A stretch of 35,499 nt of DNA from a virus. Shown one piece after another: positions 28,832-35,480 of the stretch. Numbering within the stretch: the first letter of the stretch is position 1; each line of letters begins with the position of its first letter. The DNA lies in the IMG/VR virus record IMGVR_UViG_3300025137_000120, positions 1 to 35,499 of that record; one strand, 5' to 3'. The position numbers and the translations under genes were made by a program. The notes beneath the pieces were generated by a model. It did not search any database. It had not been told where the DNA came from and was given only the letters and a program-made list of their open reading frames with translations.

Positions 28832-30283
28832 CTAAGTGTCAGTATTGTCTTCTTTACTAACATAGTCTGATAATATAAATCTCCTATTTGGATTAACTGC
28901 AACTTTAAATGTAGTCATTAGTTCTCTATTAACTAACATTTCAGATGCAGAATCTGTTGTTGTTAAACCAATCCTAGTATTTGGATATGATTTATTATTG
29001 AAATTAACCGTCATTTCTATAACTGGCCTTTTTTCTTCCACTGTAGGTAATCTTCTTGCAATCGATACATCAATTATATCTGATTTAAATTCACTACCAT
29101 TCTTTCTCCAGATAGCTGTATCGCCATCTATCTTTAAATTATCTACATGTAACATGGAAGCGTTTGTACCGTTACCGGTGTCAAACTTAGCACGTATTGA
29201 ATTTTTCAATCCATCTAATTTAATTCTTTCTATAAAACCACATTCTGTTCTATGTAGCGGTTTTCTATGTAATTCGTGTGTGAAGTAATCTACTATTAAT
29301 TCTAGTACTTCTTCATCTGTTATTTTTCCTAAGGATTTACCATCTTCTAGGTCATATCCATTGAAGTGTGATCTGATTCCTGGTGATCCATTTATCTCTA
29401 AAACATAAAGATCTTTACCAACTTTACAATGATCTACACCGCAATAGAGTGCGCCAGTCGCACGTGCGGACTGTTTAACGAGTTCTTTTTCTTCATCTGA
29501 TAGTTTATATGGCTTTGTTTTTGCACCTAAATGTACGTTGTTTCTAAACTCTTTTTCGTCTTGCTTAATCCGTTCAGCTGATCCTAGGATCTTACCATTA
29601 ATAACTAATGTTCTTATATCTGATTCCAATGGCAAGTATTGCTGGATTAATAGTTGTGCATCATATTTCCATAATGCTTGACAAACAGAAACTAACGATT
29701 GTTTACTCTCTGCTATAGCAACACCAACTCCTTGTGTACCTGTTAATGTTTTGATGACAACAGGAAATTTACCTCCGATCTTTTCATGAGCAGAGTCTAT
29801 AGACTTAATATTTGTTATAACAGATGATTTAGGTGTAGGTATATTATTACGATCTAATGCAATTACGTTTGACATTTTATTATCACATAGCATCATTGAT
29901 TCTAAATCGTTTACCATAAAGAATCCATATGTACCTAAAGAAGATACTAAGGACTGTGATACTAAAGTTTGTATAGCCCCAGCTCTTACGAATACAATTG
30001 AATTTTCTTTACTTATTTCTATTTCACTATCTTCACCATCATAGTTCTGGAAAACCACGGATCCTAAATCAACATCAACAGAAGAGATAAAGGCTTCCTC
30101 TACATTTATTAATGTAAATTTCATTCCTCTTTTCTTAGTAAGCTTACTAACTATATCCGCAAATGTTCCTTCTTCTTCCCCAAGTCCAAGCACAATACAA
30201 TGTAGCTTAGAAGGATCTTTTTCAAATACCCTCTTTTCTTGTATTATTTCGTTATCCGAATTTTGCCAGTCTTTAAATTTCAT
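28832..30283 (-). CDS. RimK-like ATP-grasp ligase fused to RimB-type aspartic-protease-like domain
   Basis: 483 residues in two domains. Residues 130-335 are a RimK-type ATP-grasp: FPVVIKTLTGTQGVGV (Lys178 and glycine loop), LLIQQYLP and LYVLEINGSPG (Glu297, Asn299, metal ligands). Residues 345-475 look like a retropepsin-type domain: IRAKFDTGNGTNASMLHV (Asp368-Thr-Gly) and TDSASEMLVNRELM, then VNPNRRFILS, as in RimB/DUF785 ATP-dependent protease-like proteins. RimK adds Glu to ribosomal protein S6 in bacteria, and RimB is its usual partner. The target in a phage is not known: S6, another host protein, or a virion tail. It lies between gp17 and gp18, is transcribed with gp16/gp17, and is not present at this point in T4. 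Confidence 0.82.
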   Translation of the reverse strand: MKFKDWQNSDNEIIQEKRVFEKDPSKLHCIVLGLGEEEGTFADIVSKLTKKRGMKFTLINVEEAFISSVDVDLGSVVFQNYDGEDSEIEISKENSIVFVRAGAIQTLVSQSLVSSLGTYGFFMVNDLESMMLCDNKMSNVIALDRNNIPTPKSSVITNIKSIDSAHEKIGGKFPVVIKTLTGTQGVGVAIAESKQSLVSVCQALWKYDAQLLIQQYLPLESDIRTLVINGKILGSAERIKQDEKEFRNNVHLGAKTKPYKLSDEEKELVKQSARATGALYCGVDHCKVGKDLYVLEINGSPGIRSHFNGYDLEDGKSLGKITDEEVLELIVDYFTHELHRKPLHRTECGFIERIKLDGLKNSIRAKFDTGNGTNASMLHVDNLKIDGDTAIWRKNGSEFKSDIIDVSIARRLPTVEEKRPVIEMTVNFNNKSYPNTRIGLTTTDSASEMLVNRELMTTFKVAVNPNRRFILSDYVSKEDNTDT

Positions 30284-32298: not shown

Positions 32299-33570
32299 CT
32301 ATGAGGTAGTGTTTATTTGTCCGCCCATTGCACTATGATTAGAGCAGTAGTAATATAGCGTTGGTGTACTTGCTGTAACTACTATTTGTATTGATGTTGA
32401 TGTAGGATTAGTAACACCTGTTGTGTATGCTGCTCCACCATTATGTGTTCCATTTGCTACCTGAGAAAATTTAAATGGATGAGCCGCAGGATAATTAATT
32501 ATATATGTATTACCAGCAACAAATGTTAACGTTGGTTGCTGTTGATCAAATATGAAATATTTATTTCCAGAGAATACTACATCTGGGTATGATGTTAAAG
32601 TGTTAACGTTTTGGGTAACACTTACAAACACAGGAGGATTATTAGAATTAATACCATCAATAGTTAATCCAGATGGTAATCCATATCCTGATACTGCCAT
32701 ACCAACCCCTAGATTAGCTACGTTGTTAACATAAACTTCATCTTGAGTTGCGCTAATTACTATTTGTTTTGTTATATTTATAGCTTGAACTCCTGCTGTA
32801 TATGTAAATGTATTACCAGCAGAAGTTGGGTTTGATGTTGTCTCTCGTGTAGTTGTAACTGTAAATGAACTTGGGCTATCATTTGATCCAACAGTAAAAT
32901 TAAGTCCTTGATAAAATTCTGCAGGGGTTTGTCTTTCGAAGTCTAGGTTGATTGTACGTATAATACCTTGATCTACAGTTGGTCCATAAAATTTCATTTT
33001 CATAACAAAATCTAATTGGTAAGTTAAAACTCTTCTTTCTGTGAAATCACCTTCGTAATCATCTTGAATACTTACCCCTGTTAATACAACAGGAACGTCT
33101 TGTTTGTGTGTAAAGTTATCTACTGGGGTAATTGATACACTATACTCTGGTTGAAAATAAGGAAGTATCTGTTCAACTATTTGTAAACCATCATCTTGGT
33201 TTTTAGCTAAAATATATAAAGACATTCCTATATTATAAGACGTGTAGTGTGAAATAGTTTTCTTTTTAGAAACATCACTCGCGTGATCTTCTACAATTTT
33301 ATTTCTCTTCTGTTGTTTTATATTGGTATCTAATTCTAATGAAGTCATTTCAAATGCCATTCGTGGCAATTTGATTGATAAAGGAGAATCAAAGTCTTGG
33401 TCAATTCTTGCAAGAAATTTTTGTTTTGGTCCATATGATAATGGAACTTTTATTTGATTTAATACAGCACCGCTAGCACCTTTTCGAATTACTTTTATAT
33501 CATTAAACAGTGTTCCGAATACAGCTACCGATTTTCGCATTGTGGCATGATAGAAATGAGAACCAAACAT
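32299..33570 (-). CDS. gp15: Tail terminator/sheath stabiliser (gp15) with C-terminal cupredoxin-like extension
   Basis: 423 residues; T4 gp15 has 272. Residues 1-215 match gp15, including QIVEQILPYFQP, which is identical in T4, and KFYGPTVDQGIIRT. From 225 on is extra. Residues 345-420 look like a cupredoxin: PTLTFVAGNTYIINYPAAHPF (His364) then YYYCSNHSAMGG (Cys409, His412, Met415). The His, Cys-x2-His-x2-Met set is that of a type-1 copper site. Gp15 seals the tail tube top and joins it to the neck. I infer that the extra domain protrudes from the tail-neck junction; copper binding is not proven. Confidence 0.85.
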   Translation of the reverse strand: MFGSHFYHATMRKSVAVFGTLFNDIKVIRKGASGAVLNQIKVPLSYGPKQKFLARIDQDFDSPLSIKLPRMAFEMTSLELDTNIKQQKRNKIVEDHASDVSKKKTISHYTSYNIGMSLYILAKNQDDGLQIVEQILPYFQPEYSVSITPVDNFTHKQDVPVVLTGVSIQDDYEGDFTERRVLTYQLDFVMKMKFYGPTVDQGIIRTINLDFERQTPAEFYQGLNFTVGSNDSPSSFTVTTTRETTSNPTSAGNTFTYTAGVQAINITKQIVISATQDEVYVNNVANLGVGMAVSGYGLPSGLTIDGINSNNPPVFVSVTQNVNTLTSYPDVVFSGNKYFIFDQQQPTLTFVAGNTYIINYPAAHPFKFSQVANGTHNGGAAYTTGVTNPTSTSIQIVVTASTPTLYYYCSNHSAMGGQINTTS

Positions 33571-34502: not shown

Positions 34503-35480
34503 TTATCCTACGTAAAAGTCGACTGGTTGTTCCCAATTTAATCGGGCTTCTTCTTCCAATCTTGTAATTTCTTCATTTGCATCATCAAAAAGTTGTCTTC
34601 CGTTAAACGTAACTCCACCAGGCATTTGCATACCTTCGAACTTTAGTAGGTTTGTTCCCCATTGTCTTTTAATTAATGATGTAGCATATTTCTTTAAAAA
34701 GTAATCGTTATAAACATCAGTGTATGTATCTGGATCTAAAATCCGGAAGCACTCTACTACAATATAATCATCTACCTGTACTTCTTGTGACCAATTCATG
34801 AATATATCTAATTGATTTTTATGCATATCAAAGTTAATAGTTTTTTCGTCACTATCTATAATGTTATCAAGCATATCTAAGTATTGCATACTCATAACAT
34901 ACTCAGCTAAACTACCCATAAATCCTAAACTATATAAATCATTCATATGAATCTGATATCTTATATCGAACATATCACTAGTAGAAACTGAATCACGAAT
35001 AGGTATTACTCTTACGACATTTTGTACTAAATCAGGAATAGGAATAAATCTATTTTCTATATTTCCTTTTACTATTCCATTAGATGATGAAATAACACCA
35101 GTTGCACCTGATGTTCCACCTGTTACTGTTTCACTAGCTTGGAAAGGTACGTTAGGATTGCCTAATGTATTATATCTTAGTGTGGATGTAGTTGGTACTT
35201 TTTTTACAGTAGCAATTGCTCCTGATGTACCACCAGTCATTATTTCGCCTTCTATAAATGTTCCTGTGGTTACTGCTTGAAATACTAATTCACTATTAGT
35301 TATTTGATGCTTTAAGAATACTTTTTCGATTCCATCCATATGATAGTTTTGATAGAATTGTAGAGCTTCGTCTATTCTATCATCGATTTGATCCTCGTCG
35401 ACATTTATTTCGATCACCGGTGCTCCCAATGATCTTAAACAGAAATCAATTAATGTTGTTTTACTATTTGGTTTAGCCAT
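34503..35480 (-). CDS. gp13: Neck protein (gp13) with inserted tandem TGGTSGA repeats
   Basis: 325 residues (T4: 309). FCLRSLGAPVIEINVDEDQIDDRIDEALQ is trimmed to the known gp13 opening, and the C-terminal part, LIKRQWGTNLLKFEGMQMPGG, also matches. Between residues about 75 and 132 are two repeats of F-x2-(G/S)-E-x-(M/V)-TGGTSGA, a small beta insertion. A late promoter lies directly upstream: only five bases lie between TATAAATA and the ATG at 35480, so its mRNA should be near-leaderless. Confidence 0.92.
   Translation of the reverse strand: MAKPNSKTTLIDFCLRSLGAPVIEINVDEDQIDDRIDEALQFYQNYHMDGIEKVFLKHQITNSELVFQAVTTGTFIEGEIMTGGTSGAIATVKKVPTTSTLRYNTLGNPNVPFQASETVTGGTSGATGVISSSNGIVKGNIENRFIPIPDLVQNVVRVIPIRDSVSTSDMFDIRYQIHMNDLYSLGFMGSLAEYVMSMQYLDMLDNIIDSDEKTINFDMHKNQLDIFMNWSQEVQVDDYIVVECFRILDPDTYTDVYNDYFLKKYATSLIKRQWGTNLLKFEGMQMPGGVTFNGRQLFDDANEEITRLEEEARLNWEQPVDFYVG

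Follow-up and report, generated by a model that had tools for sequence, protein, structure and literature searches.

Two described systems lie closest to the protein considered here. The first is gp15 of phage T4, a protein of 272 residues (PDB 3j2m_A); the second is the plastocyanin/azurin family of cupredoxins (PF00127), of which members such as plastocyanin are free electron carriers. In amicyanin, the ligands are His53, Cys92, His95, and Met98 (PMC12723479). Metal binding by phage tails also has a precedent, because the T4 long tail fiber holds seven iron ions through HxH motifs (PMC11705849). In the literature searched, which included few subscription papers, we found no description of a cupredoxin, plastocyanin, or copper-binding domain on a phage baseplate, tail, or virion; what appears new here is a putative copper-type module common to the virions of marine phages and the surfaces of marine cells.

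A gp15 homologue with a C-terminal extension

The window, i.e., the whole 35,499-nucleotide stretch of viral DNA that was analyzed, encodes on its minus strand a 423-residue gp15-like tail sheath stabilizer with a C-terminal extension (32299..33570, stop codon included). The gp15 core, residues 1–216 (32923..33570, minus strand), was delimited with PF16724 and T4 gp15 structure chains. In a profile search with the 423-residue protein, PF16724 (T4 gp15) covered residues 5–216 with an E-value of 2.1e-67 and a score of 227.3 bits, against a curated cut-off of 25; phrog_227 matched with an E-value of 3.7e-73, and the alignment to T4 gp15 spanned residues 1–215. These matches bear out the preliminary description of this DNA, which had proposed a gp15 homologue that runs past the end of T4 gp15 (~272) to residue 423. 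The gene order on the minus strand is gp13, gp14, gp15, terS, terL, then sheath, so that gp15 occupies the position typical of the T4 family, between gp14 and the terminase genes. Phage C48C1 has the identical order, and pelagiphage HTVC008M has a matching order with additional genes interspersed. Like T4 gp15 in its first 216 residues and in its gene neighborhood, the window protein differs in having an added β-module and a cupredoxin domain. The gp15 proteins of cultured relatives are likewise shorter, the 777-bp gene of C48C1 encoding ~258 residues and the 816-bp gene of HTVC008M ~271. Because the window sheath resembles that of HTVC008M (59% identity) and the terminase that of C48C1 (68% identity), we take the window to come from a marine T4-like phage, whose host is probably a pelagic proteobacterium.

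The extension has two parts. Residues ~254–328 (32587..32811, minus strand) make up a β-rich linker of 'VGMAVSGYGLPSG' type repeats, modeled as strands with block pLDDT values of 82–89; this module is missing from a shorter, 358-residue relative (L012). Residues ~330–423 (32302..32583, minus strand) make up the cupredoxin-like domain, which was delimited from an AlphaFold2 model and PDB matches. The model of residues 325–423 alone, built on a 59-row alignment, had a pLDDT of 89.8 and a pTM of 0.80. In the full-length model, residues 254–324 came out as a β-module and 330–423 as a further domain of good quality, but the gp15 core was weak (mean pLDDT 69.5, pTM 0.38), and this model was left out of any placement on the virion.

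A Foldseek search of the PDB with the domain model gave seven matches at E ≤ 1e-3, namely rusticyanin (E 3.5e-4) and the cupredoxin domain of Hyphomicrobium nitrite reductase, and the next matches were laccases, amicyanin, and plastocyanin. VIA-align superposed the model on rusticyanin with Z 9.1 and rmsd 2.4 over 90 residues, and on the Hyphomicrobium domain (2dv6) with Z 8.9 and rmsd 1.9 over 79 residues; Z-scores of 8–9 are near those attainable by unrelated folds, and the structural match carries weight because every top PDB row is a cupredoxin, not through Z alone. In the model, His364 immediately precedes a strand (domain residues 42–45), Cys409 closes the strand at 81–85, and the loop leading to the last strand (92–98) contains His412 and Met415. 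A His before a strand, a Cys at the end of a strand, and a His and a Met in the final loop constitute the classical cupredoxin arrangement. The confident model and the uniformly cupredoxin best matches agree with a Greek-key β-sandwich and with the earlier proposal of a cupredoxin-like C-terminal domain; on the strength of the model, residues ~330–423 very probably adopt a cupredoxin fold with an intact ligand set.

Predicted copper ligands and kinship to copper proteins

The four predicted ligands are encoded on the minus strand at 32479..32481 (His364, the first ligand, in AHPFKF), 32344..32346 (Cys409, the thiolate ligand, in LYYYCSNH), 32335..32337 (His412), and 32326..32328 (Met415, the axial ligand). 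All four stand where the preliminary description had placed them, and the blue-copper-like C-x2-H-x2-M arrangement that it had pointed out has exactly the loop spacing of amicyanin. Cys409 is the sole cysteine of the 423-residue protein and, by six-frame translation, no other real gene in the window contains C-x2-H-x2-M. His364 did not vary in either alignment, one of 59 viral rows and one of 29 viral and cellular rows, and the same was true of Cys409 and His412 (zero entropy at all three positions in both sets); Met415 was conserved except for a natural Met-to-His exchange in two relatives (L004, L160), and His was its only substitute in the 29 phage and cell domains.

Some of these collections could have been biased toward the ligands, having been gathered by whole-domain searches or, in one case, with a pattern containing YYYCxxH. 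Viral contigs were therefore searched with an alignment that ended before the ligand loop. The upstream His and C-x2-H-x2-M were present in 70/70 distinct viral domains retrieved in this way, 68 of which were scored by script and two by eye (L267, NYYCSSHSGM; L319, YYYCPNHIKM), and residues between the ligand positions varied freely. Since the ligands are kept in this unbiased set, chance occurrence of the motif is ruled out, and the conservation among homologues that the preliminary description had called for holds. Plain tblastn searches of cultured phages likewise returned the four ligands in 12/12 copies, at 34–55% identity. The cell set, which was retrieved with a pattern containing CxxH, is independent evidence for His364 and Met415 only. 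Tyr407 and several glycines match the ligands in conservation, which is thus partly structural.

Conservation of this kind bears on whether the domain could be a metal-free cupredoxin- or Ig-like β-sandwich for carbohydrate or protein contact, with the Cys and His as structural leftovers. β-Sandwich decoration domains are frequent on phage virions, and the carrier in P-HM1 is annotated with an Ig domain (PF07686). However, the four ligand positions are kept in all 70 unselected copies while the intervening residues are free to vary, and none of the 70 was a degenerate copy that had lost its ligands, making a metal-free domain very improbable. The Ig V-set reading behind the P-HM1 annotation was itself set aside, the PDB antibody-chain hits resting only on the YYC stretch.

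His376 (GTHNGG) was considered as a fifth ligand and rejected: it is near-invariant in viruses, but is deleted or replaced by Trp or Asn in four domains (L123, L251, L215, L237), for which reason its role is probably structural. A separate peculiarity of some relatives (L011:1467-2942, L016:3001-4467, and L319) is a second repeat module within the cupredoxin-like domain itself; it follows 'YTTGVV' and precedes the last strands, and the four ligands remain intact.

Taken alone, the window domain reached no family in Pfam or NCBIfam, and fell short of the PF00127 cut-off. The best three PDB hits of a profile made from the 29 phage and cell domains were plastocyanins, with marginal E-values of 0.037–0.14; in the best of these, each of the four predicted ligands (His, Cys, His, Met) aligned with its plastocyanin counterpart (H, C, H, M). 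The amicyanin profile TIGR02657 gave an E-value of 0.042 for one of the 29 domains only, and nothing for that of the window. A firmer connection came through a single intermediate, a lipoprotein-like protein from a Woeseiaceae genome (L198): its domain is 50% identical to the window domain and scores 24.8 bits against PF00127, over the cut-off of 21.2, so linking the phage domain to named copper proteins. The His, Cys, His, and Met that mark the PF00127 ligand set occur in each of the 70 viral domains. As compared with PF00127 cupredoxins (rusticyanin, amicyanin, plastocyanin), the module is thus alike in modeled fold, in its H...C..H..M set, and in the placement of the ligands relative to the strands; it differs in being part of virion proteins and in having its own signature, GNTY...HP...GTHxGGxxYTTGV...LYYYCxxHxxMGG. 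Two other affiliations were discarded. PF25489 (At5g54830-like) reached E-values down to 8e-6 in single members, but was under its cut-off in L012, the member examined. Phage plastocyanin, petE, was set aside as the source of the module because it is a separate metabolic gene (PMC3037559), a judgment made from its description.

With these relationships in place, copper is the likely metal of the window domain. His-Cys-His-Met sites can take other metals, and the site might instead hold, e.g., Zn(II) or Ni(II) in a purely structural capacity. Such a site would be in keeping with the Met-to-His exchange seen in two relatives, which retains a ligand, and with the precedent of iron in the T4 long tail fiber (PMC11705849), which at the fiber tip may also be structural. 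On the other hand, both the ligand constellation and the loop spacing are those of type 1 copper proteins, and among annotated relatives the nearest falls in the plastocyanin/azurin family; another metal therefore seems improbable, albeit less so than no metal at all.

Distribution among marine phages and cells

Among the 80 gp15 loci nearest the window, a set that includes some near-copies, 16 have the domain at the gp15 end; others stop at ~250 residues or bear a different repeat. The tree of gp15 cores has two separate gains of the domain, both forced by starred branches, one in the 12-member clade that includes the window (100/99) and the other in the pair L138/L140. A member of the sister clade of that pair (L023:2057-3322) has the domain in gp14, inserted between 'EQLVS' and 'VFGEVQQRTK', a site at which the window's gp14 has no insert, and in another relative (L073:679-1794) it is located on gp13. 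Given copies in gp15, gp14, and gp13, three different neck proteins can bear the module. Additional carriers are the gp9 baseplate-fiber connectors of cyanophages, the tail fibers of pelagiphage HTVC028P, and large structural proteins. Although enterobacterial phages are abundant in the collection searched, 130/133 matching phage records were Synechococcus, Prochlorococcus, 'Cyanophage', Pelagibacter, or Methylophilales phages. PHROGs 677 (gp9 baseplate-fiber connector), 708, 30742, 693, 6005, and 27200 were matched by the domain in all or most of 59 copies; these families are named for the whole protein, and none is described as a cupredoxin. Judged by sequence, then, the cupredoxin-like domain is a module that is mobile and widespread among marine phages, and it is not peculiar to gp15.

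Related domains were also found at the C-termini of lipobox-type proteins from SAR86, Woeseiaceae, other gammaproteobacteria, and marine Euryarchaeota, in a cellular set of which some contigs are likely viral. By the same kind of evidence, the phage module is akin to these cellular domains of lipoprotein type. Among the proteins of marine bacteria and archaea that resemble lipoproteins and end in the copper-type domain are L194, L198, L213, and L245, whose other parts are cadherin-like, collagen-like, or unassigned.

Possible role on the virion

Our preferred explanation, to which we give a probability of about 0.5 as a whole, is that the C-terminal ~95 residues form a copper-loaded, surface-displayed, metal-stabilized accessory domain. 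The domain would be a cupredoxin with a complete predicted type 1 (blue) copper ligand set, His364 preceding one strand and Cys409-x2-His412-x2-Met415 forming a ligand loop with amicyanin spacing, and would exemplify a module that marine phages append to virion proteins as an accessory. Because gp15 forms a hexamer at the T4 head–tail junction, up to six copies might surround the neck. A metal ion, presumably copper, could be taken up after lysis, in sea water; the folded domain, stabilized by the metal and probably exposed on the virion surface, might then weakly contact the surfaces of hosts or particles. The preliminary description had offered adhesion, stability, or redox sensing as candidate roles. 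The evidence leaves a role in surface contact or stability evenly balanced. Counting against contact, a carbohydrate-binding module on the neck fiber of phage A-1(L) failed to bind the host (PMC10966104).

The same ligands could instead serve electron transfer or sensing, with virion-borne copper that alternates between Cu(I) and Cu(II) reporting or changing the redox state of the host surface. The complete type 1 set and the amicyanin-like loop would suit such a function, as would the occurrence of marine-cell kin on predicted lipoproteins, a site where cupredoxins carry electrons. However, the phage carriers are fiber, baseplate, and neck proteins with no accompanying redox partner domain, and the cadherin-like and collagen-like parts of the cellular carriers give the look of a generic module, so that a redox function appears unlikely. 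What the carriers share is exposure on the virion or cell rather than an enzyme partner, which is why we rank a contact module above a redox relay. Extending the contact reading further, the virions of marine phages could quite generally be equipped with accessory copper-loaded cupredoxin domains that also occur on bacterial and archaeal surface lipoproteins in the sea, and these domains could aid host contact in a copper-dependent way; we put this forward only tentatively, and hold it to be doubtful.

The HxH iron motifs in tail fibers that underlie the Ferrojan or Trojan horse idea (PMC11705849) resemble the module in that both would be metal sites on tail parts of marine phages; the iron sites sit in a trimeric fiber, whereas the module is a predicted cupredoxin copper site, and the likeness is therefore one of working only. 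Cyanophages and pelagiphages rank among the commonest marine viruses. If the copper reading is correct, a strictly conserved virion copper site would tie phage adsorption to trace-metal chemistry and provide a copper counterpart to the iron-based ideas about tails. It would also supply a testable function for a domain now hidden under 'tail fiber' and 'hypothetical' annotations.

Other features were seen in and around the locus. The gp13 relative of the window (34503-35480, minus strand) has 'GETVTGGTSGATG' type repeats, and several gp15 relatives have a C-terminal repeat of the same kind in place of the cupredoxin domain. Between the large terminase and sheath genes, the window encodes a RimK-like ATP-grasp protein (28832-30283, minus strand; PF08443, E 8e-38), to which is fused a C-terminal stretch that resembles an ATP-dependent zinc protease (PF05618, E 4e-5, below the cut-off).
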